DNA of 64,000 nt from Stappia sp. Its GTDB lineage: Bacteria; Pseudomonadota; Alphaproteobacteria; Rhizobiales; Stappiaceae. The notes under the pieces were generated by a model. That model was not told the DNA's origin. It did no database searches and was given only the letters and a program-made list of their open reading frames with translations. Shown one piece after another: positions 614 to 54,229 of the stretch. The position numbers and the translations under genes were made by a program. Position 1 is the stretch's first letter; every line of letters begins with the position of its first letter. The stretch covers positions 62,001 through 126,000 of the forward strand of contig PBLF01000021.1 of NCBI GenBank assembly GCA_002722295.1, written 5' to 3'.

Positions 614-652
614 CCTCGAACATGAATTATGATTCATAATTCATGTTCGAGG
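614..652. promoter_or_regulatory. 39-bp perfect palindrome, putative TetR operator
   Basis: The two 19-bp arms, starting CCTCGAACATGAATTATGA on the left, are exact reverse complements around a single central base at 633. The palindrome sits immediately upstream of the TetR gene and covers an in-frame ATG (643) that would otherwise look like its start. Its right end merges with the GGGAGG ribosome binding site (651-656) used by the GTG at 664. Position and symmetry are those of an autoregulatory TetR-family operator; binding by the neighbouring TetR protein is inferred. The centre contains GATTC, a potential CcrM methylation site. Confidence 0.8.
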
Positions 653-663
653 GAGGATGCGAC

Positions 664-1416
664 GTGAAGAAGCCTTCGAGGCGACACGGCGGAACAAGAG
701 GTGACACGCCTGTGAAAGCGGCGGGCAAGGCCGCCGGAAGGGGGGCCCGCCAGACAGGCAAAGCGTCTGCGAAAGCGAGCGCCTCCGCAAGGGGGCAGTC
801 TGATCCTTTGCGGCCCAAGACCGCGCGAGGAGAGGCCACGCGACGCGCTATCCTTGGCGCTGCGGAGATTGTCATCGGCCGTCAGGGCTACAGCGAGGCT
901 TCCATCGGATCGATCACGCGCCAGGCAGGCGTGGCTCAGGGGACTTTCTACATCTATTTCGCCGGCAAGGACGAGGTGTTCTCCGAGCTTGTCGCGGAGA
1001 TGGGGCGGATGTTGCGCCATGTGATCGCCGAAGCGACGTCCGGTTTCGATGATCGCCTTGAAGCCGAACGGGAGGGGTTGCGAGCTTTTCTCACCTTCGT
1101 TTCCGCTCATCCCGAGTTGTACAGGATCGTGCAGGAGGCGCAGTTCGTCGATCCGGAAGCCTACCGCGCCTACTTCAGAACGTTTGCGCAAGGCTATCGC
1201 GAGGGCCTGGAAAAGGCCGCGTGGGAGGAAACGATCAGCGCCGGTGATGCGGAGATCCGCGCCTGGGCACTGATGGGGGTCGCACGCGCGCTCGGCGAGC
1301 TTCAGGTTGTCTTCAACGGAGGCCATTCCATCGATGCGCTGGTGGAAACGGCGCACGACCTGATAGAGAACGGTTTGCGTGCCGGGGTACCCTCCGGCGG
1401 AGGTGATCGTGGCTGA
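664..1416 (+). CDS. TetR/AcrR-family transcriptional regulator
   Basis: About 250 residues. A basic, Ala/Lys-rich N-terminal extension of ~50 residues precedes a typical TetR DNA-binding domain (TRRAILGAAEIVIGRQGYSE, then IGSITRQAGVAQGTFYIYFA), followed by a helical ligand-binding region. GTG 664 is preferred because GGGAGG lies 7 bases upstream, while the in-frame ATG at 643 falls inside the operator palindrome. It overlaps the following enoyl-CoA hydratase gene by 8 bases, so it is the first gene of an acyl-CoA operon. It probably represses this operon, and possibly the ABC operon at 5-11 kb, and is relieved by an acyl-CoA or the free acid (inference from context). Confidence 0.9.
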   Translation: MKKPSRRHGGTRGDTPVKAAGKAAGRGARQTGKASAKASASARGQSDPLRPKTARGEATRRAILGAAEIVIGRQGYSEASIGSITRQAGVAQGTFYIYFAGKDEVFSELVAEMGRMLRHVIAEATSGFDDRLEAEREGLRAFLTFVSAHPELYRIVQEAQFVDPEAYRAYFRTFAQGYREGLEKAAWEETISAGDAEIRAWALMGVARALGELQVVFNGGHSIDALVETAHDLIENGLRAGVPSGGGDRG

Positions 1417-2200
1417 GCGGGAGGATTCGTTTGTCGCGGTCGAACGCGTTGGAAGCGCCGTGCGCCTGGTTCTCGACCGGCCCGGCCGTGGCAATGCGCT
1501 CGTGCCGGAACTGCTGCGTGATCTGCGCGGGGCAATTGAGCGGGCGTCGACGCTTCATCCTCCGGCCTTGATTCTCACGGGACGCGGGCGGGCTTTTTCA
1601 GCCGGTGGCGATGTGTCCGCCTTTGCCGATGCCGCCGGTGATCCGGCCAGGTTGCAGGCGTTTTCTTCCGAGATTGTGGGTGAGCTGAATGGTGCGATCC
1701 TCGATCTTCTCGCCTTTCCGGCGCCGGTCATTGCGCTCGTCAACGGGCCTGTCACCGGTGGTTCGGCGGGGCTGGTTTTCGCCTCCGACATTGTTCTCAT
1801 GAGCGAGAGCGCCTTTCTTCAGCCCTGGTACTCGGAGGTGGGCTTTTGTCCCGATGGCGGGTGGACCGCGCTTCTGCCCGAGCGCATCGGCGCGGCCCGG
1901 GCGATGGCCGTACAGGTTTTCAACACGCGCTATTCGCCTGCCGACTGCCTGTCACTTGGTCTGGCGCACGCTCTGGCAGCGCCCGAGGATCTCGAGGCGC
2001 TTCTTCAAACGACTGTCGCCCAGATCACACAGAAGGATGCGGGCACGCTTGCCATGGCGCGTTCCCTCATTTGGTCGCCTGAACGCAGGGAGCGGGTGGC
2101 GTCGGCGCTTGAACGCGAGAGGCAGGGCTTCCTGCAGCTTGTCGGCCGTGCGGAGACCGCTCGGAGAATGAAGGCTTTCCTGGGAAAAGGCTCCACGTGA
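1409..2200 (+). CDS. Enoyl-CoA hydratase/isomerase (crotonase) family protein
   Basis: 263 residues, the usual crotonase length. The first oxyanion-hole segment is visible in LILTGRGRAFSAGGDV and the second in VNGPVTGGSAGLVFASDIVL. In the catalytic loop (EVGFCPDGGWTALLPERIG) the residue before GG is Asp, as in PaaG-like isomerases, instead of the Gly of classical hydratases, so isomerase or atypical hydratase activity on a CoA thioester is plausible. GTG 1409 has GGAGG 5 bases upstream and overlaps the TetR stop; an upstream in-frame start at 1379 has no clear ribosome site. It acts in the cytoplasm with the ligase and MaoC genes that follow. Confidence 0.88.
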   Translation: MAEREDSFVAVERVGSAVRLVLDRPGRGNALVPELLRDLRGAIERASTLHPPALILTGRGRAFSAGGDVSAFADAAGDPARLQAFSSEIVGELNGAILDLLAFPAPVIALVNGPVTGGSAGLVFASDIVLMSESAFLQPWYSEVGFCPDGGWTALLPERIGAARAMAVQVFNTRYSPADCLSLGLAHALAAPEDLEALLQTTVAQITQKDAGTLAMARSLIWSPERRERVASALERERQGFLQLVGRAETARRMKAFLGKGST

Positions 2201-2251
2201 GCGAATGGAAGCCGCTTGCGTGGAACATGCGGTGCATCGGGGAGAGGTGTT

Positions 2252-3820
2252 ATGGCGTTCGTGACGGACATGGCGGCGAAGCGGGCGGAAATATCTCCCG
2301 ACCGGACTGCGTTCATCGACGTGACTAGCGGAGCGCGGCTGACATTTGAGGGAGTAGAGGCGCGTGCAAATCGCATGGCCCGGGCCTTGCTGGCACTTGG
2401 GGTGAGACGCGGTGACCGGGTCGCGTTGCTCGCCCGCAATCATGCCGATGTCTTCGTCCTGCTTTTCGCGGCCCAGAAGACAGGCATCCTCCTGTTGCCG
2501 CTCAACTGGCGCCAGCCGGCTGCCGAGTTGGCGGCGACCATGACGCTGGCAGCGCCCGTGATGCTCCTGCATGACGAGGCAAGCCGGGAAACCGCCGAGG
2601 CGCTCGGGGTCTTGAGCGGACTGGAGCCGCTTGCCTTCGCCGATGCAAGGTCTGAAGCTGGAACCAAGGCCGCGCGTTTTCTGGAGGCGGTGGAGGCTGT
2701 CGCCTCATTGCCGACGGGCGACACCCGCGTTGATGGTGAGGCCCCCTGGTATCTCCTGGCGACATCCGGGACCACCGGTACGCCGAAGCTGGTCATCCAG
2801 ACCGCAGGCATGGCTTGGGCAAATGCCGTCAACTACACGCAGGCAACGGACCTGACCGGCACCGACCGGTCGGTCAATTTTCTGCCGCTGTTTCACACTG
2901 CGGGTATCAATCTTTTGACCTTGCCCCTGTTTCTCGCCGGTGGCGCGTCCCGCGTGCTGGCGAAGTTCGAAGCGGCAAGCGTCTTGTCGCTCATCGGATC
3001 GGGCGAAATCACGGCCTTCTTCGGCGTTCCCGCCATCTATCAGGCTCTGGCGCTCGAGGAGACATTCGACGCAACGGATTTCTCGTGCGTTAGAAGTCTC
3101 GGCTGTGGCGGCGCGCCCATGCCCGCGCCGCTTCTGGAGCGCTATCTGGCGCGTGGTGTGACGGTATGTAACGGCATGGGCATGACCGAGACCGGGCCGA
3201 CTGTGTTTCTTTCCGACCCGGAGCGGGCGGCGGAGAAGATCGGATCGGTCGGCAAGGCGCAGATGCTCGCCGACGTGAGGCTTGTCGATGCGGCCGGCAA
3301 GGTGGTTGAAGGAGAAGGCGAAGGCGAGCTTCAGATCCGAGGCCCCGGTGTGACCCTGGGCTATTTCGCGAATGAGCGCGCGACGGCCGAGGCCTTTGCC
3401 GAAGGTGGCTGGCTGCGGTCCGGCGATGTGGCGCGTCGCGATGCGGATGGCTATTTCTCCATCGTGGACCGGATCAAGGACATGTACATCTCCGGCGGCG
3501 AAAACGTCTATCCGGCGGAGGTCGAGCGGGTTCTCGTCGCTCATCCGGATGTTCTGGAAGCGGTCGTCGTGGGTGTGCCCGACGAGCGGTGGGGCGAAAC
3601 CGGCGCGGCATGGCTGATCCCGCGACCGGGCGCGCGGCCGGATGGCGACGAACTGGTCGCCTGGTGCCGCGAGCGACTCGCCGGGTACAAGGTGCCCCGA
3701 TACATCGAGATTGCCGGCGATCTGCCTCGCACCGCCGCCGGCAAGGTGCAGAAACACGTCCTCAAGGACCGTCTTGAGGGCACGCACGCTCAGCGCATGA
3801 CAGGGAAGGGAAAGACATGA
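2252..3820 (+). CDS. AMP-dependent acyl-CoA synthetase/ligase
   Basis: 522 residues. ANL-superfamily motifs appear in order: the P-loop LLATSGTTGTPKLVI, the A5 motif GMGMTETGP, the hinge segment GWLRSGDVARRDADGYFSIV followed by DRIKDMYISGGENVYPAEVE, and the C-terminal catalytic lysine in PRTAAGKVQK. It activates a carboxylic acid with ATP to an acyl-adenylate and then to a CoA thioester; the substrate is not evident. ATG 2252 is chosen because GGGGAGAG precedes it; an in-frame ATG at 2216 would add 12 unrelated residues. Its stop overlaps the next gene (ATGA), so it is translationally coupled to the MaoC genes. Confidence 0.93.
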   Translation: MAFVTDMAAKRAEISPDRTAFIDVTSGARLTFEGVEARANRMARALLALGVRRGDRVALLARNHADVFVLLFAAQKTGILLLPLNWRQPAAELAATMTLAAPVMLLHDEASRETAEALGVLSGLEPLAFADARSEAGTKAARFLEAVEAVASLPTGDTRVDGEAPWYLLATSGTTGTPKLVIQTAGMAWANAVNYTQATDLTGTDRSVNFLPLFHTAGINLLTLPLFLAGGASRVLAKFEAASVLSLIGSGEITAFFGVPAIYQALALEETFDATDFSCVRSLGCGGAPMPAPLLERYLARGVTVCNGMGMTETGPTVFLSDPERAAEKIGSVGKAQMLADVRLVDAAGKVVEGEGEGELQIRGPGVTLGYFANERATAEAFAEGGWLRSGDVARRDADGYFSIVDRIKDMYISGGENVYPAEVERVLVAHPDVLEAVVVGVPDERWGETGAAWLIPRPGARPDGDELVAWCRERLAGYKVPRYIEIAGDLPRTAAGKVQKHVLKDRLEGTHAQRMTGKGKT

Positions 3821-4230
3821 GCGACAAGCCCGTGCCGCGAGGCCGTGAGCCCGTGGTGATGGAGTGGACGCCGTCCCAGAGCGAGTTCGACCGCTTCGCG
3901 GCTCTTTCGGGGGATGACAACCCGATCCATGTGGATCCTGAGTTTTCGGCGAGAACCCGCTTCGGGCGCACCGTCTCCCACGGAATGCTGCTCTACACCA
4001 AGGTCTATGGCCTGATCCGCCGGGCGTGGCCTGAAGCTGACCATGTTGCCCAGTCATTGATGTTTCCCCATCCGGCTTTCGCCGGCGAACCGCTGAGCAT
4101 CGTGGTCACGCCAACTGACGACGACCCAAGGCTGCTCAACATCGAGGTTAGACGCAAGGCGGACGGAACACAGGTGCTTCTTGCCGAGTGCCGCCTTGAG
4201 CGATCCGGAAATGCGGGGGACGGACAATGA
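3817..4230 (+). CDS. MaoC-like (R)-enoyl-CoA hydratase subunit with catalytic motif
   Basis: 137 residues, single hot-dog domain. The hydratase-2 signature is intact: FAALSGDDNPIHVDPEFSA followed by RTVSHGMLLYTKV, where the Asp and His of the D-x-N-P-x-H motif are the catalytic pair. It overlaps the ligase upstream and a second MaoC-fold gene downstream by 4 bases on each side (ATGA). It probably hydrates or dehydrates a CoA thioester made by the ligase. Because the next gene lacks the catalytic residues, the two may form a heteromeric hydratase like the ChsH1-ChsH2 steroid enzymes (inference). Confidence 0.88.
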   Translation: MSDKPVPRGREPVVMEWTPSQSEFDRFAALSGDDNPIHVDPEFSARTRFGRTVSHGMLLYTKVYGLIRRAWPEADHVAQSLMFPHPAFAGEPLSIVVTPTDDDPRLLNIEVRRKADGTQVLLAECRLERSGNAGDGQ

Positions 4231-4607
4231 GCCTTGAGATCGGACAGATCGCGGAGACGACCGCGAGCTTCTCCAGGGAGGATGCTGCGGAGTTCGCGGC
4301 TCTCGCGGGTCTTGAAGATGTACCCTCGACAGTGCCTGAGCCACTGGTTGGCGGACTTTTTTCCTATCTGCTTGGAGTAAGACTGCCCGGATCGGGCACC
4401 AATTACCTCAAGCAGGAGATGACATTCCATGCAAGAGCGGGCCTCGATGTACCGCTGGTGGCCACGGTAACCGTGACGCGGTTGCGTCCGGAAAAGCATC
4501 TCGTCGACCTTGAAACGGTCTGCACCGATGCGCGTGGTCGTAAGATCGCGAGCGGTCGGGCACTTGTCTATGTGCGGGACGTGGCAAACGCCTTTGACGT
4601 GGCCTGA
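4227..4607 (+). CDS. MaoC-fold protein lacking the hydratase catalytic motif
   Basis: 126 residues with a MaoC/hot-dog pattern: FAALAGLEDV at the position where active members have a G-D-x-N-P-x-H motif, then PEPLVGGLFSYLLGVRLPGS and the strand segment TNYLKQEMTFHARAGL. The catalytic Asp and His are not present at the expected place, so it is probably a structural or substrate-binding partner of the active MaoC protein encoded just upstream (4-base overlap). It is the last gene of the operon; the bidirectional hairpin at 4618-4647 follows 10 bases later. Confidence 0.82.
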   Translation: MSLEIGQIAETTASFSREDAAEFAALAGLEDVPSTVPEPLVGGLFSYLLGVRLPGSGTNYLKQEMTFHARAGLDVPLVATVTVTRLRPEKHLVDLETVCTDARGRKIASGRALVYVRDVANAFDVA

Positions 4608-4617
4608 ACAGCGGCAC

Positions 4618-4647
4618 AAAAAACGCCGCCGGGTGACCGGCGGCGTT
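4618..4647 (-). terminator. Rho-independent terminator of the cold-shock gene, possibly bidirectional
   Basis: An 11-bp perfect stem (AACGCCGCCGG at 4622-4632 with its complement at 4637-4647) encloses a GTGA loop. Six A residues at 4618-4623 become a U tract for minus-strand transcripts, so it best fits the end of the cspA-type gene. It also lies directly after the plus-strand acyl-CoA operon and may stop both. Confidence 0.8.
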
Positions 4648-4691
4648 CGTGTTCTTTCACGGAGCGTGCGAGACGCCCTGTGCCTGAGTAA

Positions 4692-4904
4692 TCAGGCCAG
4701 CTCGAGCTGGGCAGCCTGCAGGCCGCGACCGCGACGGTCTTCCTCGGCGATGAAGGAGAGCGCGGTGCCCTCGGCCGGAACGGCCAGGCCCGAACGCTCG
4801 AAAGCGGTGATGTGGACAAAGATGTCCTTGCCGCCCTCGGCCGGGGTGACGAAGCCGAAACCACGCTCGTGGTTGAAGAACTTGAGGGTGCCGGTCTGGC
4901 GCAT
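4692..4904 (-). CDS. CspA-family cold-shock / nucleic-acid chaperone protein
   Basis: 70 residues, the whole length of a single cold-shock domain. RNP1 and RNP2 are visible as KFFNHERGFGFVTP and KDIFVHITAFERSG. Such proteins bind single-stranded RNA and DNA as chaperones. The ATG is preceded by GGGATAGGAGTTTCCC with GGAG about 7 bases away. The ~250-bp region upstream is AT-rich and gene-free, consistent with a long 5' leader, which is common for csp genes. It is monocistronic, with its own terminator. Confidence 0.95.
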   Translation of the reverse strand: MRQTGTLKFFNHERGFGFVTPAEGGKDIFVHITAFERSGLAVPAEGTALSFIAEEDRRGRGLQAAQLELA

Positions 4905-5062
4905 GGGAAACTCCTATCCCGTAGTCTGTTAGTCCAAAAAGAGCGCAAGTAAGCGCACTTGCTTGCGCGAGCGTTGCATTCAGAAACGGGAAAGGCAGTT
5001 CTTCTCGACATTCCCGGCTCTATGGCCGGTTATGCGCCGTATACCGAAACTTTCTTAACCGG

Positions 5063-5072
5063 GATTCGAATC
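5063..5072. other. Two adjacent GANTC sites (GATTCGAATC) upstream of the cold-shock gene
   Basis: Two CcrM-type recognition sites abut to form the 10-bp palindrome GATTCGAATC, about 160 bp upstream of the csp start in the gene-poor interval 4905-5157, with TTAAC at 5055. GANTC is uncommon by chance in GC-rich DNA. A methylation-dependent promoter is possible but not shown. Confidence 0.35.
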
Positions 5073-5157
5073 TTCAAGCCCGCTGGGCGAAAAACAATTT
5101 CACCCACCTCAATATAGGCGAAAGAGAGAATTCCAGCAAGTGAAGAAATTGTGGCGA

Positions 5158-5970
5158 TTACGCAGTGTTATTCTGCAGCAGGTCGCGGAGAATCTGGCTG
5201 AAAAGCGCGCTTTCTTCCAGATGTGGCGCGTGACCGGAATTGGCGAATGTGGCGAGACGCGCGTGCGCGACGTGCTTCTTTTGCCAAAGAGCGGCCTCGG
5301 CATCGTAGAGCTGGCTGTCGGTTCCGCACGCCAGAACCACCGGCAGTGTCAGGCGCGGCAGGAGGGGGCGAAAGTCCTGTTGTGTAAGGGAGGCCCACAT
5401 CTCGCACAGCGCCTCGCCGTCGGCCTTGCGGATTTCGTTTTCCATCCATGAGGCAAGCTCCGGATCGGGATCCTTCCTGAGGCAACGGCGCGCGGTGGCG
5501 CCGGCAAGGCGTGGCCACTGGGCGACAAGGGCGCGCATGAACACCTTGTTGCGTGCGGCGTCGAGCCCGTTGCGCGTGCCAAGCGCCCAGTCCGGTCCGT
5601 TGAGCACTTTCGGCGACATGTCCTCGATCACGAGTGCGGCCAACCGGTCCTCGCCATGGCGCTCGATCATCGACCAGGCGACCAGCGCGCCCATGGACCA
5701 GCCGACGACGACCACCTCCTGCAGATCTTCCGCGACGAGCAGTGCGTGAATCGCGTCCGCCGCGGCCTCGATGGTCCGCGCCCGCATTTCACTGCTGCGG
5801 CCGTGACCCGGCAGATCCGGTGCGAGCACGAGAGTCTCCCGGCCAAGACTCTCCATTTGTGGCCCGAAGAACCCTCCATGGCAGGACCACCCGTGCAGCA
5901 ACACGATCGGTCGCACGCCCGGGCGCAGCCGTCCGGCGCGGCGCACGTGAAGCGAACCGTTGGTGTTCAC
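5158..5970 (-). CDS. Alpha/beta-fold hydrolase
   Basis: 270 residues. The catalytic triad can be placed: nucleophile Ser in the elbow GWSMGA, Asp in ACGTDSQLYD, and His in NSGHAPHLEE; the oxyanion region is IVLLHGWSCHGGF. The family includes esterases, C-C hydrolases and lactonases. GTG 5970 is chosen because GTGA overlaps the livM stop codon, a classic coupled start. It is the last gene of the ABC operon, so it may cleave the imported substrate, for example an ester or lactone that the acyl-CoA ligase at 2252 then activates (inference). Confidence 0.9.
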   Translation of the reverse strand: MNTNGSLHVRRAGRLRPGVRPIVLLHGWSCHGGFFGPQMESLGRETLVLAPDLPGHGRSSEMRARTIEAAADAIHALLVAEDLQEVVVVGWSMGALVAWSMIERHGEDRLAALVIEDMSPKVLNGPDWALGTRNGLDAARNKVFMRALVAQWPRLAGATARRCLRKDPDPELASWMENEIRKADGEALCEMWASLTQQDFRPLLPRLTLPVVLACGTDSQLYDAEAALWQKKHVAHARLATFANSGHAPHLEESALFSQILRDLLQNNTA

Positions 5971-7025
5971 CGGCGGGACCTCAGCCGCCCGACGATGCCG
6001 TCCGGGAAGAAGTAGACGGACAGGACAAAGAGCACTCCGAGCCACAGAAGCCAGCGTTCCGGGGCAAGTAGCACAGGGATCAGGGGCAAGGCTTCCGTCG
6101 CCTTTTCCGCGGCGCCCATCAGCGTCTGCAGGTAGGTTTGCGCGAGCACGAAGAGTGTTGCGCCGATCATCGCGCCATACATGGTGCCCATGCCGCCGAT
6201 CACGACCATCAGCAGGATATCGATCATGATTTCCATGGACAGCGTTGTCGCCGGTCCGGTGTAGCGAAGCCAGATGGCGAGCAGGGCACCGGCAAGCGCG
6301 GCGACGACGGCGGACAGGACACTTGCGGTGGTGCGATACCAGACCACGCGATAGCCGATGGCCTCGGCGCGAAATGCATTGTCGCGAACGGCCTTCAGGG
6401 TGCGCCCGAAGGGAGAATTGACGATCCGCAACAACACAAGAAAGAGCAACGTCGCGCTGACGAAGACCAGATAGTAGGCCAGCAGCCGTCCGTCGAGCCG
6501 CACGTCGAGTATGCGGAAATCGGCGAAGCGGAACGCCGGCGTCAAGGCCCTGGGAATACGATAGGTGAGACCGTCCTCGCCGCCGGTCAGCCAGGAAAGC
6601 TGCGAGGCGAGAACGGCGAAGGCGCTCGCGACCGCGAGGGTCACCATGGCGAAGAAGATTGCCTTCACCCGAAGCGAGAACAGGCCGATCGCGAGCGCCA
6701 GAAGGCCAGCGAGTGCCGCGCCGCCGAGCGTGCCGAGCGCGATTGCGGCAAAGGAGGCGCCAAATGCCGAGAGCGTCAGTGCCACTCCATAGGCACCGAT
6801 GCCGAAGAACATCGTGTGGGCGAAGGAAACGATGCCTGTATAGCCCAGCAACAGGTCGTAGCTTGCCACCAGCACGATGAAGATCGAGATCCGTGCCGCC
6901 GTGTCGAGCGACTTGGTGCCGGGAAACAGGAACGGCGCGAAGGCGAGCCCCAGCGCGATGAGAAGCAGGATCGCGCCGAGCGTGCGGCTCTGCGGGCGGT
7001 CCCCGGAAACGAGCTTGTCGAACAT
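5967..7025 (-). CDS. livM: Branched-chain-type ABC transporter permease (LivM family)
   Basis: 352 residues, mostly hydrophobic, with 8-10 membrane segments. LivM signatures are present: YDLLLGYTGIVSFAHTMFFG near residue 55-75 and the permease loop NSPFGRTLKAVRDNAFRAEA. It forms the inner-membrane channel with LivH and is driven by LivF and LivG. It lies 10 bases downstream of livH and overlaps the hydrolase gene by GTGA. HAAT-family transporters carry branched-chain amino acids, amides, urea or aromatic and aliphatic acids; the substrate here is unknown. Confidence 0.93.
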   Translation of the reverse strand: MFDKLVSGDRPQSRTLGAILLLIALGLAFAPFLFPGTKSLDTAARISIFIVLVASYDLLLGYTGIVSFAHTMFFGIGAYGVALTLSAFGASFAAIALGTLGGAALAGLLALAIGLFSLRVKAIFFAMVTLAVASAFAVLASQLSWLTGGEDGLTYRIPRALTPAFRFADFRILDVRLDGRLLAYYLVFVSATLLFLVLLRIVNSPFGRTLKAVRDNAFRAEAIGYRVVWYRTTASVLSAVVAALAGALLAIWLRYTGPATTLSMEIMIDILLMVVIGGMGTMYGAMIGATLFVLAQTYLQTLMGAAEKATEALPLIPVLLAPERWLLWLGVLFVLSVYFFPDGIVGRLRSRR

Positions 7026-7035
7026 GTTGCGGCCC

Positions 7036-8065
7036 CTACTTCGCCTTGACCACGGGATAGAGCCCTTGTGGCCGCCACATGAGCACGCAGACCATCAGCG
7101 CGATGGTGGACACGAGAGCCGCCTTGGGCGCGAGAAAGGCCATGTAGTTCGACAGGAGTCCGACAAGCAGCGCGCCGATGAAGCAGCCCTCGACCGAGCC
7201 AAGGCCTCCGATGATGACCACGACGAAAACGAGGACCATGATCTCCGAGCCCATGTGCGAGGTGATCGTTTCCTGGTAGAGGCCCCACATGACGCCGCCG
7301 AGGCCGGCGAGAGCCGAGCCTGTCATGAAAACCAGCAGAAACAGGCGACGGATGCGGTAGCCGAGTGCTTCCACCATCTCGCCGTTCTCCACCCCCGCGC
7401 GCACCAGAAGGCCGATGCGGGTCGCCTTTCAGCACGTGACGCATGGCCAGGAACAGCACGAGGCCGACCGCCACGGCGAACAGTCGGTATTTTTCGATGA
7501 TGGCGTCGGCGACGACCAGTGAGCCCTGGAAGAGCGGCGGGCGCGCCACGTGGATCGCGTCCGGGCCCCAGATCACGTGGATCATCTGCTGTGCCACGAT
7601 CAGCCCGCCCATGGTGACGAGGATCTGCTTGAGGTGGTGCCCGTAGACCGGCTGCACGATGAGGCGCTCGAAACCGAGCCCGAGAAGCGCGGTAATCGCC
7701 ATCGCCGCAAGGATGGCAAGGAAAACCGCCGCAAGATTGGCGAAGGCCGCTTCCGACTGGCCGAGGCCGGACATCCACGCGAGCACAGAGAAGCCGACGA
7801 AGGCTCCGACGGTGACGAAGGCTCCGTGTCCGAAGTTGATGACGTCCATCAGTCCGAAGACCACGGTCAGGCCGGAAGCCATGATGAAGATCATCAGGCC
7901 CATGGCGAGACCGGCTACGGTGAGTGTCAGCCAGGTCGAGGGCGAGCCTATGGCCAGCAGGCCGAGGAGCGCCAGCGCGGGTGCGAGGAGCACCGGCGTC
8001 GCATTGACGAGCCGTTCGCGCGGAGTCGCGGCGACAAGCTTGGGGCGGATTGCGGTCTCGCTCAT
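7036..8065 (-). pseudogene. livH: Branched-chain-type ABC permease (LivH family), frameshifted
   Basis: The first 211 or so codons (8065 down to about 7427) encode a normal LivH N-terminal part: GLMIFIMASGLTVVFGLMDV, then INFGHGAFVTVGAFVGFSVL. The rest of the permease continues in another frame from about 7425 to 7036 (NGEMVEALGYRIRRLFLLVF, ending MWRPQGLYPVVKAK). One extra base (a G on the coding strand near 7426, in AAAGGCGACC where AAAGCGACC would restore the frame) separates the two. Read with the shift, the product would be ~342 residues, the family length. Either a recent null mutation or a sequencing error; all neighbouring transporter genes are intact, which favours error or a very recent event. 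Confidence 0.85.
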
Positions 8066-8787
8066 TGGTGCATCTCCAGACTGAGGCCCATGAGCCGTTC
8101 CTGAAGGACGGCGTCGCCGGCGAGGTCTTTCATGTCACCCGCATGCACGATGCGCCCGTCGTCCATGACGGCGACGGTGTCGCCGAGGGCGGCGGCCATG
8201 GAAAAGTTCTGCTCGACGAGAAGGATGGTCGTATCGGTACGCTTGAGTTCCTGCAGCGCTTCGGTCATTGCCGCGATGATCGCGGGCGCGAGGCCCTTGG
8301 ACGGCTCGTCGATGAGGATCATGCGCCGGGGCTCGATGATCGCGCGTGCGACGGAGAGCATCTGCTTCTGTCCGCCTGAAAGCGTGCCCGCCGCCTTCTC
8401 CCAGAAGGTGCCGATCGGGGGAAAAAGGTCCTTGATCCAGCCCAGGCGCTTCTCGTCCATCGGGCCGGAGCAGGCGGCAAGCCGCATGTTTTCCGCCACC
8501 GTGAGGTCGGAGAAGATCCCCATGTTTTCGGGCACGTAGGCGAGGCCGGAGCGCGAGATGTCCGGGGTGGTCTTGCCCGAGATCCGGTTCCCATCGAAGA
8601 CGATCTCGCCGGCCCCCGGCTTCCAGAGCCCCATGATGGTGCGCAAGGTGGTGGACTTGCCCGCTCCGTTGCGTCCGAGCAGCACGGTGACGCCGCCGCG
8701 CGGGACGTTGAGATCCACGCCCTGAAGGATGTGATAGGGGCCGATGTGGGTGTGTACGCCCGAAAGCGTCAGCAGCATGTCGGTCAT
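8062..8787 (-). CDS. livF: Branched-chain-type ABC transporter ATPase (LivF family)
   Basis: 241 residues. Walker A LLGRNGAGKST, signature LSGGQKQM, Walker B RMILIDEPSKGLAP and the H-loop region LLVEQNF are all visible. It powers uptake through the LivHM channel as a partner of LivG. The gene overlaps livH (ATGA) and livG (4 bases), showing tight coupling within the operon. Confidence 0.95.
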   Translation of the reverse strand: MTDMLLTLSGVHTHIGPYHILQGVDLNVPRGGVTVLLGRNGAGKSTTLRTIMGLWKPGAGEIVFDGNRISGKTTPDISRSGLAYVPENMGIFSDLTVAENMRLAACSGPMDEKRLGWIKDLFPPIGTFWEKAAGTLSGGQKQMLSVARAIIEPRRMILIDEPSKGLAPAIIAAMTEALQELKRTDTTILLVEQNFSMAAALGDTVAVMDDGRIVHAGDMKDLAGDAVLQERLMGLSLEMHQ

Positions 8788-9569
8788 GGACGTGCCTCCG
8801 CTCCCGCAGCCGGCGCTCGCCCGAGATACGCCTCCTGCACCACATCCATTTTCATGACTTCGCCCGGGTCGCCCTCGGCGACAAGTGTGCCGTTGTGCAG
8901 GACCACGATGCGATCGGCGAGCGAGCGGATCACATCCATCTTGTGCTCCACCAGGAGAATGGTGCGGTCGTGATCGGCCTTGAGATCGCGGATGAGATCC
9001 AGGATCACCGGGACTTCATCCACGCTCATGCCGGCGGTGGGTTCGTCGAACATGAGAACTTGCGGAGCGAGCGCGATCATCATGGCGACCTCGAGCTTGC
9101 GCTGATCGCCATGAGGCAGGGCCGAGACGGTCATGTCGCGCTTGTCGGCGAGCCGGACCTCGGCGAGCACGTGCTCCGCACGTTCGGCCAGTTCCACGTG
9201 GGAATCCGCCCGCGAAAACAGGTCGAAACCGCGCCTCGCCCGGGACTGCACCACCAGCCGCACGTTTTCGCGAACGCTGAGGCTCGGAAACAGGCTCGTG
9301 AGCTGAAAGGCGCGCCCGATGCCACGGTCGCAGCGAGCGGCCGGTCCGAGGCGGGTGATGTCCTCTGCGTTGAGGTGAACGCGCCCCGCGCTCGCGGTGA
9401 GCTGGCCCGAGATCAGATTGAAATAGGTGGTTTTTCCCGCACCGTTCGGACCGACGATCGCCGTCAGCGTCCCCCGGTCGAAGGCGCATGAAACCGCGTC
9501 GACGGCGACATGTCCGCCAAAGCGGATTGTCAGGTCCTGCGTTGCGAGAACGGGTGGTTCGCGCGTCAC
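8784..9569 (-). CDS. livG: Branched-chain-type ABC transporter ATPase (LivG family)
   Basis: 261 residues. Walker A IVGPNGAGKTTYFN, a Q-loop in GIGRAFQLTSLFP, Walker B QVLMFDEPTAGMS and the switch His in LLVEHKMD are present. The ABC signature reads ALPHGDQRKLE: the usual LSxGxQ is degenerate (SALPHGDQ), as in many LivG proteins. It lies 99 bp downstream of the binding-protein gene, the largest gap in the operon. Confidence 0.95.
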   Translation of the reverse strand: MTREPPVLATQDLTIRFGGHVAVDAVSCAFDRGTLTAIVGPNGAGKTTYFNLISGQLTASAGRVHLNAEDITRLGPAARCDRGIGRAFQLTSLFPSLSVRENVRLVVQSRARRGFDLFSRADSHVELAERAEHVLAEVRLADKRDMTVSALPHGDQRKLEVAMMIALAPQVLMFDEPTAGMSVDEVPVILDLIRDLKADHDRTILLVEHKMDVIRSLADRIVVLHNGTLVAEGDPGEVMKMDVVQEAYLGRAPAAGAEARP

Positions 9570-9668
9570 GTGGGCACTCCCGGTCGTGGGTGAGGGGGAA
9601 AATGCTGGCCGGGGACGATGAGGGGGCGGTGGCCCGAGCCTCGCTCCCTCGTCGCCCTGCTGCCATCT

Positions 9669-10850
9669 TCAGTTCCCAGTGCGTACCGGGATCTGCATGT
9701 CCTCGATCTTCAACTCGCGCACGAGTTCGGGAATGCCCCATTCGACATCGTCTTCGACGCGGATCTTGAAGTGATACATGGCCTGCAGCGCCTGATGATC
9801 TTCCGGGCGGAAGGTCATGGTGCCCTTCGGCGTCTCGAAGGACATGCCCTCCATGGCCGCGATCAGGTCGTCGGTCTCGGTGGACCCCGCGGTTCGGATG
9901 CCCTCGACAATGGCGATCGCGGCCGACATGCCGCCTGCGGTAAAGAAGTCCGGGGGCGTGCCGTAACGCTTCATGTGCTCGGAGACGAGCCAGTCATTGG
10001 CCGGATTCTGCGGGATGTCGTGATAATAGTAGGTCGCGCCCTCCATGCCGGGCAGGGCCGTGTAGGCCTTCATCGCGGCAAGGATGTTGCCTCCCGTGGC
10101 GATCTCGATGCCGAGCCGCTCCGGCTCCATCGCCTTGATCTTGCCGATCGGGTTGTTGCCGCCGGCCCAGATCACAAAGAGGAACTTGCGGCCTTCCGCG
10201 TCCTTCAGGGCATCGAAGATGCGCTGGGCGCTTGCCGTGAAGTCCTGCGTGTCGGTGGGGGCATATTCCTCGAAGACGAGCCTGGCTCCGGTCGGGGCCA
10301 GTGCCTCGCGGAAGGCGGCGACACCGTCGCGACCAAAAGCGTAGTCCTGCGCCAGCGTCGCGATGGTCACGCCCTCGGCGCCGAGGGCGACGGCGTTGGC
10401 GATCGCGTCCTGCGAGGAATTGCGACCCGTGCGGAAGATGTAGCGGTTCCAGTTTTCGCCGGTGATCGAGTCGGCGACAGCCGGTTCCACCAGGAGAATC
10501 TTGCCGTATTCCTCGGCGACCGGAAGCATGGCCAGTGCCACTCCCGAGGAAACGGGACCGACCGCAAGGTCCACCTCGTCGTCGCCATAGGCTTCCGCAA
10601 GCACCGCGCGGCCGATATCGGGTTTGCCCTGGGTGTCCTTCTCGATGACGGTGATCTTTCGCCCGTCGATCTCCATGGAGCCGTCCGTGGCGTACTCGAA
10701 GCCCATCATGAGACCGGTATGCGACTGCTTGGCATAGGCCTCGAGTGCACCGGTCTTGCCGTACACATGAGCGATGGTGATGTCGTCTGCGGCCTGGGCG
10801 GCCGTCATGCCGACCGCGACGAGCGCGACGGCGGCGAGAATGCGTTTCAT
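9669..10850 (-). CDS. Periplasmic substrate-binding protein, branched-chain amino acid/amide (HAAT) family
   Basis: 393 residues with a cleavable signal peptide (MKRILAAVALVAVGMTAAQA, cleavage after AQA). The mature protein shows the type I periplasmic fold: DDITIAHVYGKTGALEAYAK, GPVSSGVALAMLPVAEEYGK and ILLVEPAVADSITGENWNRY. The start was set at the ATG before KRIL with GGAGGAG upstream; an upstream in-frame ATG (11015) would bury the signal peptide. It is the first gene of the transporter operon, about 160 bp downstream of the ATGATTCAT dyad. The sequence resembles binding proteins for aromatic or aliphatic acids more than LivJ, but the ligand is unknown. Confidence 0.92.
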   Translation of the reverse strand: MKRILAAVALVAVGMTAAQAADDITIAHVYGKTGALEAYAKQSHTGLMMGFEYATDGSMEIDGRKITVIEKDTQGKPDIGRAVLAEAYGDDEVDLAVGPVSSGVALAMLPVAEEYGKILLVEPAVADSITGENWNRYIFRTGRNSSQDAIANAVALGAEGVTIATLAQDYAFGRDGVAAFREALAPTGARLVFEEYAPTDTQDFTASAQRIFDALKDAEGRKFLFVIWAGGNNPIGKIKAMEPERLGIEIATGGNILAAMKAYTALPGMEGATYYYHDIPQNPANDWLVSEHMKRYGTPPDFFTAGGMSAAIAIVEGIRTAGSTETDDLIAAMEGMSFETPKGTMTFRPEDHQALQAMYHFKIRVEDDVEWGIPELVRELKIEDMQIPVRTGN

Positions 10851-11319
10851 TCCCATCTCCTCCCTGAAAGTCCCGTCCCGGAAACAGACGTGCGGCCCGA
10901 GCCGGGTATGCGCCGGTTCTCCCGTACCGGCGGTCCGCCGTGTCCCGGCGAGCCTGCCGGTGCCTGGGACGCACGCGAGAGGCTGCCAGTCGGCAGCGAC
11001 AATTATATGACGCATGATTCATGTTTCATGTCAACGAGCGGCCCTGAAAGGAGGCCCGATGCCGGTCGGCATGGTGAGGGGCGGCGCCCTGGATTGTTGG
11101 GCCTGATGTCTATTCAAGGATTATAGGAAGATGATTTTTGAAATTACCTTGAGGAAAAATCTGATTGGAACGCATTCTGATAATTTTAGATCTTCGTGAT
11201 TCCGGTCACACATCGATTTCAGGAGTTTCGTTACAGATAAGGATATGGACGCGAGCAAGGTCGTCCTGAATACGAAAACAAGAAAACCCTTTTCAGGGTC
11301 CTTTAGAGGGATTGTCGTC
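10851..11319. other. Divergent intergenic region between the ABC operon and the BA14K gene
   Basis: No convincing gene is seen here. The left part (to ~11100) is GC-rich and holds the leader of the binding-protein gene and the dyad at 11013-11023. From ~11105 to 11250 it becomes distinctly AT-rich (for example ATTATAGGAAGATGATTTTTG), consistent with promoter DNA for the BA14K gene. Confidence 0.6.
11013..11023. promoter_or_regulatory. Putative second TetR operator in front of the ABC operon
   Basis: CATGATTCATG is an 11-bp perfect dyad around the central T at 11018. Its core ATGATTCAT is identical to the centre of the 39-bp palindrome at 614-652, and the AT-rich flank (AATTATATGA at 11001-11010) resembles that operator too. 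It lies about 165 bp upstream of the binding-protein start. Control of the transporter by the same TetR protein is inferred from this match. Confidence 0.5.
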
Positions 11320-54152: not shown

Positions 54153-54178
54153 GCCAATCCGCAGGCTTGTATATCCAG

Positions 54179-54229
54179 GGCGGAAGGAGGGCGTGCATCA
54201 TGCACGCCCTCCTTCCGCCCAATTTTTTT
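54179..54229 (+). terminator. Strong terminator with a 43-bp perfect palindrome
   Basis: The dyad spans 54179-54221 with arms starting GGGCGGAAGGAGGGCGTGCA around one base at 54200, followed by TTTTTT (54224-54229). It begins 27 bases after the phaP stop and cleanly separates the two phasin genes. The size of the stem is unusual. Confidence 0.93.

Follow-up and report, generated by a model that had tools for sequence, protein, structure and literature searches.

A shared 25-bp dyad points to joint TetR control of an acyl-CoA operon and a Liv-type importer operon in Stappia sp. and other Alphaproteobacteria

In this study we analysed a 64,000-nucleotide stretch (hereafter the window) of a Stappia sp. 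draft genome that is 89% complete and 6.6% contaminated (GCA_002722295.1, contig PBLF01000021.1, positions 62,001 to 126,000). It contains an operon of acyl-CoA enzymes headed by a TetR-family regulator gene and a second operon, beginning with livK, for a Liv-type ATP-binding cassette (ABC) importer and an alpha/beta hydrolase. Both are preceded by a copy of the same 25-bp dyad. It is highly likely that this TetR jointly controls both operons, because the dyad is kept at both promoters, the tetR and liv operons are genetically linked, the livK site is absent where the TetR ortholog is absent, the tetR site is lost in most of the loci in which livK stands upstream of tetR on the same strand, and both sites are retained even where the operons lie far apart. 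Judged from sequence, the two operons very probably form one regulated pathway. The first-pass annotation of the window had placed both under one TetR repressor, and the conservation of the dyad, the linkage, the absence of the site without TetR and its loss according to layout all support that proposal.

The centre of a palindrome before tetR (614-652) and a dyad first noted at 11013-11023 (CATGATTCATG) had been said to share a 9-bp core of equal symmetry, which was borne out: the window holds exactly two copies of ATGATTCAT (629 and 11014), with 0.32 expected. Since two or more copies were also found in 5 of 100 shuffles of the window, the 9-mer alone is weak evidence. It is, however, the centre of a longer common element of 25 bp (621-645 and 11006-11030), in which 19 of 25 bases are identical, the symmetry centre is the same and the consensus is (C/T)ATGA-N4-TGAWTCA-N4-TCAT(A/G). 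The two dyads are 10.4 kb apart from centre to centre, and not 8 kb as had been given for the operons. The first copy is embedded in a perfect odd palindrome of 39 bp, made of two 19-nt arms and one central base. An RNA hairpin as the main role of this palindrome was rejected, since the relatives examined do not retain its outer arms and the DNA dyad is thus the conserved part. If the segment 614-657 were transcribed, CCTC (614-617) could pair with GAGG (649-652), beside the ribosome-binding region of tetR.

The search for the motif before liv-type operons of related genomes, which had been proposed at the outset, was carried out in 61 genomes (the own genome and those of its genus, family and order). 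The strict dyad has 44 exact sites in 24 of these genomes, where base composition (64% GC assumed) predicts about 0.04, and the control pattern, read backwards, has 0 sites in the same set. By position 19 sites precede tetR, 24 precede livK and one lies at a contig end of G004; the latter is read as a tetR promoter, the next open frame being taken as the TetR N-terminus that is absent from the other contig. Within the window's genome the palindromic pattern ATGANNNNTGAWTCANNNNTCAT has 2 exact sites only and none with 1 or 2 mismatches, the other 20 matches listed having 3; three weak two-mismatch matches to the half pattern were also found there (L004, L006, L007). In genomes of the class, strict-pattern sites away from the module occur in G235, G331, G133, G225, G117 and G358. 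That two AT-rich palindromes merely happen to share nine bases, an idea for which the shuffles would leave some room, has next to no probability given the 25-bp conservation at both promoters; chance sharing was excluded by these strict-dyad counts together with the site scores of the named loci.

To obtain these named loci, species genomes were scanned with the TetR alignment, and the best 80 of the 241 relatives found were retained; they span Stappia, Roseibium/Labrenzia, Pannonibacter, Pararhodobacter, Phreatobacter, Hoeflea, Leisingera and others. These loci and 28 further genome stretches (108 in all, many being the same genomes) were mapped for gene order; some gene orders between L115 and L123 were left out of the layout view, with their sites scored nevertheless. 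A weight matrix built from 38 sites was run on all loci, the threshold of 10 bits having been set after the scores were seen. At this threshold 51 of 52 testable livK promoters of the named loci are positive, the figure for 450-bp control blocks being 6 of 3663. Separation of the operons in relatives had been named in the first-pass annotation as the finding that would count against it; across Alphaproteobacteria the tetR-crotonase-ligase-MaoC-MaoC operon and the livKGFHM-hydrolase operon are repeatedly found together, in several layouts. The sites follow these layouts. Where the operons converge (32 of 80 loci) the tetR site is present in 30 and the livK site in 31, L100 and L172 being cut at the end and L142 having lost its tetR site. 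Divergent operons (8 loci) have a single site common to both in 8 of 8, and livK downstream of tetR on the same strand (3 loci) goes with both sites in 3 of 3. When livK lies upstream of tetR on the same strand (10 loci), 8 are without a tetR site (-15 to -31 bits) and have a livK site of 21.7 to 36.5 bits; of the remaining two, L136 carries both sites in weak form and L132 neither. In the 27 loci with no livK within the stretch examined, the tetR site was found in 26, the miss being L163.

The presence of the livK site also goes with that of TetR. Among the 61 genomes a TetR ortholog (E<1e-60) occurs in 26 and LivK in 31, and all 26 TetR carriers have LivK; in a class-wide set of 385 genomes, searched at E limits of 1e-110 (LivK) and 1e-50 (TetR profile), 11 have both, 4 TetR only, 13 LivK only and 357 neither. 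The Fisher p values for co-occurrence, uncorrected for shared ancestry, are 1.6e-12 and 5e-12, respectively. A species of the window's own genus (G007) has neither TetR nor LivK at the set limits and no exact site. The livK site was detected in 24 of the 25 TetR carriers tested among the 61 genomes (the miss is G014) and in 0 of 5 genomes without TetR; altogether 0 of 18 livK orthologs in TetR-less genomes, these 5 included, reach 10 bits at livK, the best scoring 6.6. TetR carriers elsewhere in the class have the site in 6 of 10 cases, the four misses being G238 and G334 (3.6 bits each), G411 (0.7 bits) and G361, where tetR is first and livK last on one strand and an exact site stands at tetR only. 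Even a distance of 160 kb between the operons, as in Breoghania (G017), leaves the site in place at both. Plasmids show the same pattern. Six of them encode a LivK relative; the livK site is present on all four that also have TetR, ligase and MaoC genes, and absent from the two without TetR.

Several loci show the module in altered form. In genus g6 the loci L091-L094 (G018, G023, G035, G032) keep LivK at about 77% identity without TetR and operator, and G028 keeps both. Two genomes have TetR, ligase, the MaoC pair and the hydrolase without the importer, and a degenerate dyad (6.0 bits) is located between tetR and the hydrolase gene; in two further genomes a lone TetR relative stands beside a weak dyad. 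Another Liv-type operon on the Hoeflea plasmid has a further dyad copy before it (L176:11483-11507), as if this operon had been recruited into the regulon.

The position of the dyad relative to promoter-like boxes fits the role of a repressor, as which the TetR is predicted to act. For at least 28 of 51 livK promoters the top-scoring -35/-10 pair starts 4 bp before the operator, where TTGA abuts CATGA to give TTGACA, and the window is of the same kind. In 17 other listed livK promoters the best pair is 27-32 bp upstream of the operator, so that the operator would cover the start region; the tetR promoters have no single dominant register. Repression by occlusion is the most likely consequence of this overlap. 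According to the proposed mechanism the TetR would be a local repressor, binding the first dyad before its own operon and the second one before livKGFHM and the hydrolase gene, and when bound it would cover the promoter elements until an inducer, possibly a pathway compound such as an acyl-CoA, releases it.

Some observations weigh against joint control by this TetR. The locus L132 of G014 has TetR but no livK site, and its tetR site is degenerate; G411 has no site, those of G238 and G334 are weak as given above, and the tetR site is lost or weakened in L142 and in the Hoeflea plasmid. The loci are related, with one family contributing many of them, and 38 of the sites served to train the matrix, so the counts are not independent; the promoter scan reports a best-of-many score without a control. 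Furthermore, TetR paralogs are found near similar dyads: L228 contains related dyads at 1607-1631 and 4781-4805 together with two TetR paralogs, which suggests that the operator type is common to this TetR branch, and another TetR could share the site. It might then be supposed that another regulator, for example a paralogous TetR, is the main binder of the dyad, which would be near this tetR for other reasons. The two-TetR locus and 7 further weak TetR matches in the own genome are in line with this, but site presence tracks this TetR ortholog and shifts with the operon layout, and an operator beside its own gene is a typical habit of TetR regulators, hence we consider binding mainly by another regulator very improbable. 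Joint control by the TetR of the window is preferred, its own-promoter dyad being conserved with the tetR gene apart from the exceptions L132/G014, G411, L142, L163, the Hoeflea plasmid and eight of the livK-upstream loci.

The genes concerned are collected in Table 1. The tetR operon is read on the plus strand in the order TetR, crotonase, AMP-forming acyl-CoA ligase and two small MaoC-type proteins; the liv operon starts at the second site on the minus strand and runs livK, livG, livF, livH, livM and alpha/beta hydrolase. They converge on a cold-shock-like gene (4695-4904, named by eye). The frame shift in livH could be a sequencing error or real damage; the relative L097 has an open frame.

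Table 1. Features of the two operons and their putative operators in the window (positions of the 64,000-nucleotide stretch)
Feature	Position	Strand	Evidence and remarks
Palindrome	614-652		39-bp perfect odd; before tetR; contains operator 1
Operator 1 (putative), 25-bp dyad CATGAATTATGATTCATAATTCATG	621-645		before tetR
TetR-family regulator	664-1416	+	PF00440 7.1e-12; likely start GTG 664 after GGGAGGA (by eye); frame open from ATG 643
Crotonase (enoyl-CoA hydratase/isomerase family), isomerase-like active site	1406-2200	+	PF00378 and alignment; start uncertain
AMP-forming acyl-CoA ligase	2216-3820	+	PF00501, PF13193; nearest solved 8weu/8wev; start uncertain
MaoC1, hot-dog protein with (R)-hydratase D...H segment	3817-4230	+	PF01575; best 1iq6 PhaJ, 2.2e-18
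MaoC2, partner-like, without D...H segment	4227-4607	+	best 1iq6, 5.8e-21; no Pfam match
Alpha/beta hydrolase, esterase-like	5158-5970	-	PF12697; alignment; structure model and fold search
livM permease	5967-7025	-	PF02653
livH permease	7034-8065	-	frame broken near 7430 in draft assembly
livF ATPase	8062-8787	-	PF00005
livG ATPase	8784-9569	-	PF00005
livK substrate-binding protein	9669-10850	-	PF13458; 3n0x 7.9e-174
Operator 2 (putative), 25-bp dyad TATGACGCATGATTCATGTTTCATG	11006-11030		before livK
TTGACA -35-like box	11029-11034	-	overlaps operator 2; same position best in at least 28 of 51 relatives

Set beside the general habits of the named TetR regulators of acyl-CoA metabolism (FadR of Bacillus, FabR, PsrA, AcuR), the regulator of the window is alike in its N-terminal TetR_N helix-turn-helix domain (PF00440, 45.4 bits against a cut-off of 24), its linked acyl-CoA enzyme operon and its own-promoter dyad, and differs in that it is predicted to control a Liv-type importer too. 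It gives weak whole-protein matches to the NCBIfam models ScbR, FadR, FabR, AcuR and PsrA; for the named acyl-CoA equivalogs (FadR, FabR, AcuR, PsrA, FasR) it scores 19.6-51.9 bits against cut-offs of 150 and above, and a PADLOC run on it gave no match. The operator sequence was not found in the papers searched. A binding protein, two permeases and two ATPases of the Liv (HAAT) family stand in one operon, which makes the importer Liv-type, with all five subunits and the same gene kinds as LivKGFHM and UrtABCDE; in contrast to these it is linked to acyl-CoA genes and a hydrolase. LivM, LivH, LivF and LivG, the four subunits run, remain below the Liv and Urt equivalog cut-offs of NCBIfam, and branched-chain amino acids are an unlikely substrate.

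As for the enzymes, the earlier description of an acyl-CoA ligase plus hydratases probably needs correction for the crotonase. The alignment of the latter shows an invariant GF-x-PDGGW motif and no Glu at two positions which we take to be those of the hydratase residues, so that the crotonase is more likely of isomerase than of hydratase type. The (R)-specific enoyl-CoA hydratase PhaJ is the best match of both MaoC profiles, with the PhaJ-type motif (MaoC fold with conserved D and H, presumably the hydratase residues) present in MaoC1 only; since MaoC2 lacks it, the two are expected to form a heteromer. In contrast to PhaJ, the putative hydratase of the window consists of a pair of small proteins, of which one lacks the catalytic segment. 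In three plasmid records the MaoC2 orthologs are labelled phosphate acetyltransferase (L176:17604-17960, L177:17598-17957, L180:17474-17848), a label probably carried over from the fused family PRK08190, which MaoC2 matches in part.

The structure model of the hydrolase (mean predicted local distance difference test score 95.9; conserved GWS-x-G and GH) resembles bacterial esterases most, for instance 5h3h (22% identity), and such a fold leaves the substrate unfixed. An AidH-like lactonase, the best single-sequence match (8.3e-18), was rejected as its identity, because the profile and the fold prefer general esterases. Of the uptake and activation of an ester, lactone or carboxylic acid that had been suggested, that of an ester or carboxylic acid fits the gene set. 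In six loci (L063, L156, L157, L159, L165, L168) nothing of the module except TetR, ligase, hydrolase and importer was seen at E 1e-8, hence these four look like the core. Open reading frames in the gaps around 21 chosen loci of the 108 (18 proteins, judged by eye) look mostly unrelated and were set aside as substrate clues; exceptions are L161, which has a CaiB-type transferase and an additional crotonase, and Pannonibacter, with a pair of dehydrogenases. The order of steps might be ABC import, ester hydrolysis and CoA ligation, and then (R)-specific hydration or dehydration and double-bond isomerisation, which would lead into beta-oxidation.

A carboxylic ester or a hydroxy acid is the most likely substrate class. 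Further clues come from 15 TetR-less importer loci (13 genome stretches of the 18 TetR-less importer genomes and 2 plasmids, query loci included), whose neighbours differ: 7 have another hydrolase, 6 a sigma-54 PAS activator and 2 a 3-hydroxybutyrate dehydrogenase (that of L178 is above the TIGR01963 cut-off and that of L207 is 68% identical to it). The sigma-54-linked loci (L178, L207, L208, L210, L212, L214) resemble the system of the window in LivK (61-78% identical) and, in most, an alpha/beta hydrolase; they differ in having this other regulator, another hydrolase and no TetR operator, and in the dehydrogenase of L178 and L207. The PhaJ-like MaoC pair and the dehydrogenase in two loci point to (R)-3-hydroxy acids or their esters, which we put forward as a tentative first guess, against which it counts that 13 of the 15 loci are without the dehydrogenase. 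Rather doubtful is the more specific idea that the module is a dedicated alphaproteobacterial, also plasmid-borne, system for scavenging extracellular (R)-3-hydroxyacyl esters, for instance oligomers from polyhydroxyalkanoate breakdown, in which importer, hydrolase, ligase and a split PhaJ-like (R)-dehydratase would act under one TetR and of which other genomes would have a second, sigma-54-linked importer version.

The solved structures nearest to the ligase can be read in favour of other substrates of the same regulon. LivK is nearest to 3n0x, which together with 3nnd we take to be from Rhodopseudomonas palustris. According to PMC3223731, seventeen binding proteins of R. palustris gave shifts with fatty acids, dicarboxylic acids or both, and one importer of this kind adjoins the pim beta-oxidation operon; the terms 'RPA4397', '3N0X' and '3NND' do not occur in its main text. 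These shifts, the pim-adjoining importer and the fatty-acyl kind of the ligase make fatty or dicarboxylic acids, with the hydrolase as a thioesterase or acting on simple esters, a tentative possibility. The conserved module, however, has no acyl-CoA dehydrogenase or thiolase, for which housekeeping enzymes could serve, and the hydrolase, unneeded for free acids, is kept in nearly every layout. The ligase is also near a feruloyl-CoA synthetase (8weu/8wev being this and a fatty-acyl-CoA synthase), aryl and feruloyl esterases are among the many proteins similar to the hydrolase model, and Liv-type binding proteins can bind aromatic acids (PMC3223731). An aromatic or hydroxycinnamic ester, from which the hydrolase would free a phenolic acid for the ligase to convert into a CoA ester, is nevertheless rather unlikely: no ring-cleavage or oxygenase gene is present in the conserved module, the similarities shown by hydrolase and ligase are too broad to single out a substrate, and the (R)-hydratase-like MaoC pair and the isomerase-like crotonase misfit the hydratase-lyase route usual for such acids.

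With joint control by this TetR as the preferred reading, two loosely annotated operons (a branched-chain amino acid ABC transporter and acyl-CoA enzymes) become one defined regulon with an operator, found in many Alphaproteobacteria and four plasmids, which on sequence grounds is placed among the TetR-controlled catabolic regulons with a dedicated importer. A description of it was not found in the open-access literature searched, which misses most subscription journals. One operator, one regulator and one binding protein offer a handle on the substrate of a widespread and probably mislabelled importer. Elsewhere in the window, a perfect odd GC-rich palindrome of 43 bp (54178-54220) is followed by seven T and is probably a strong terminator.

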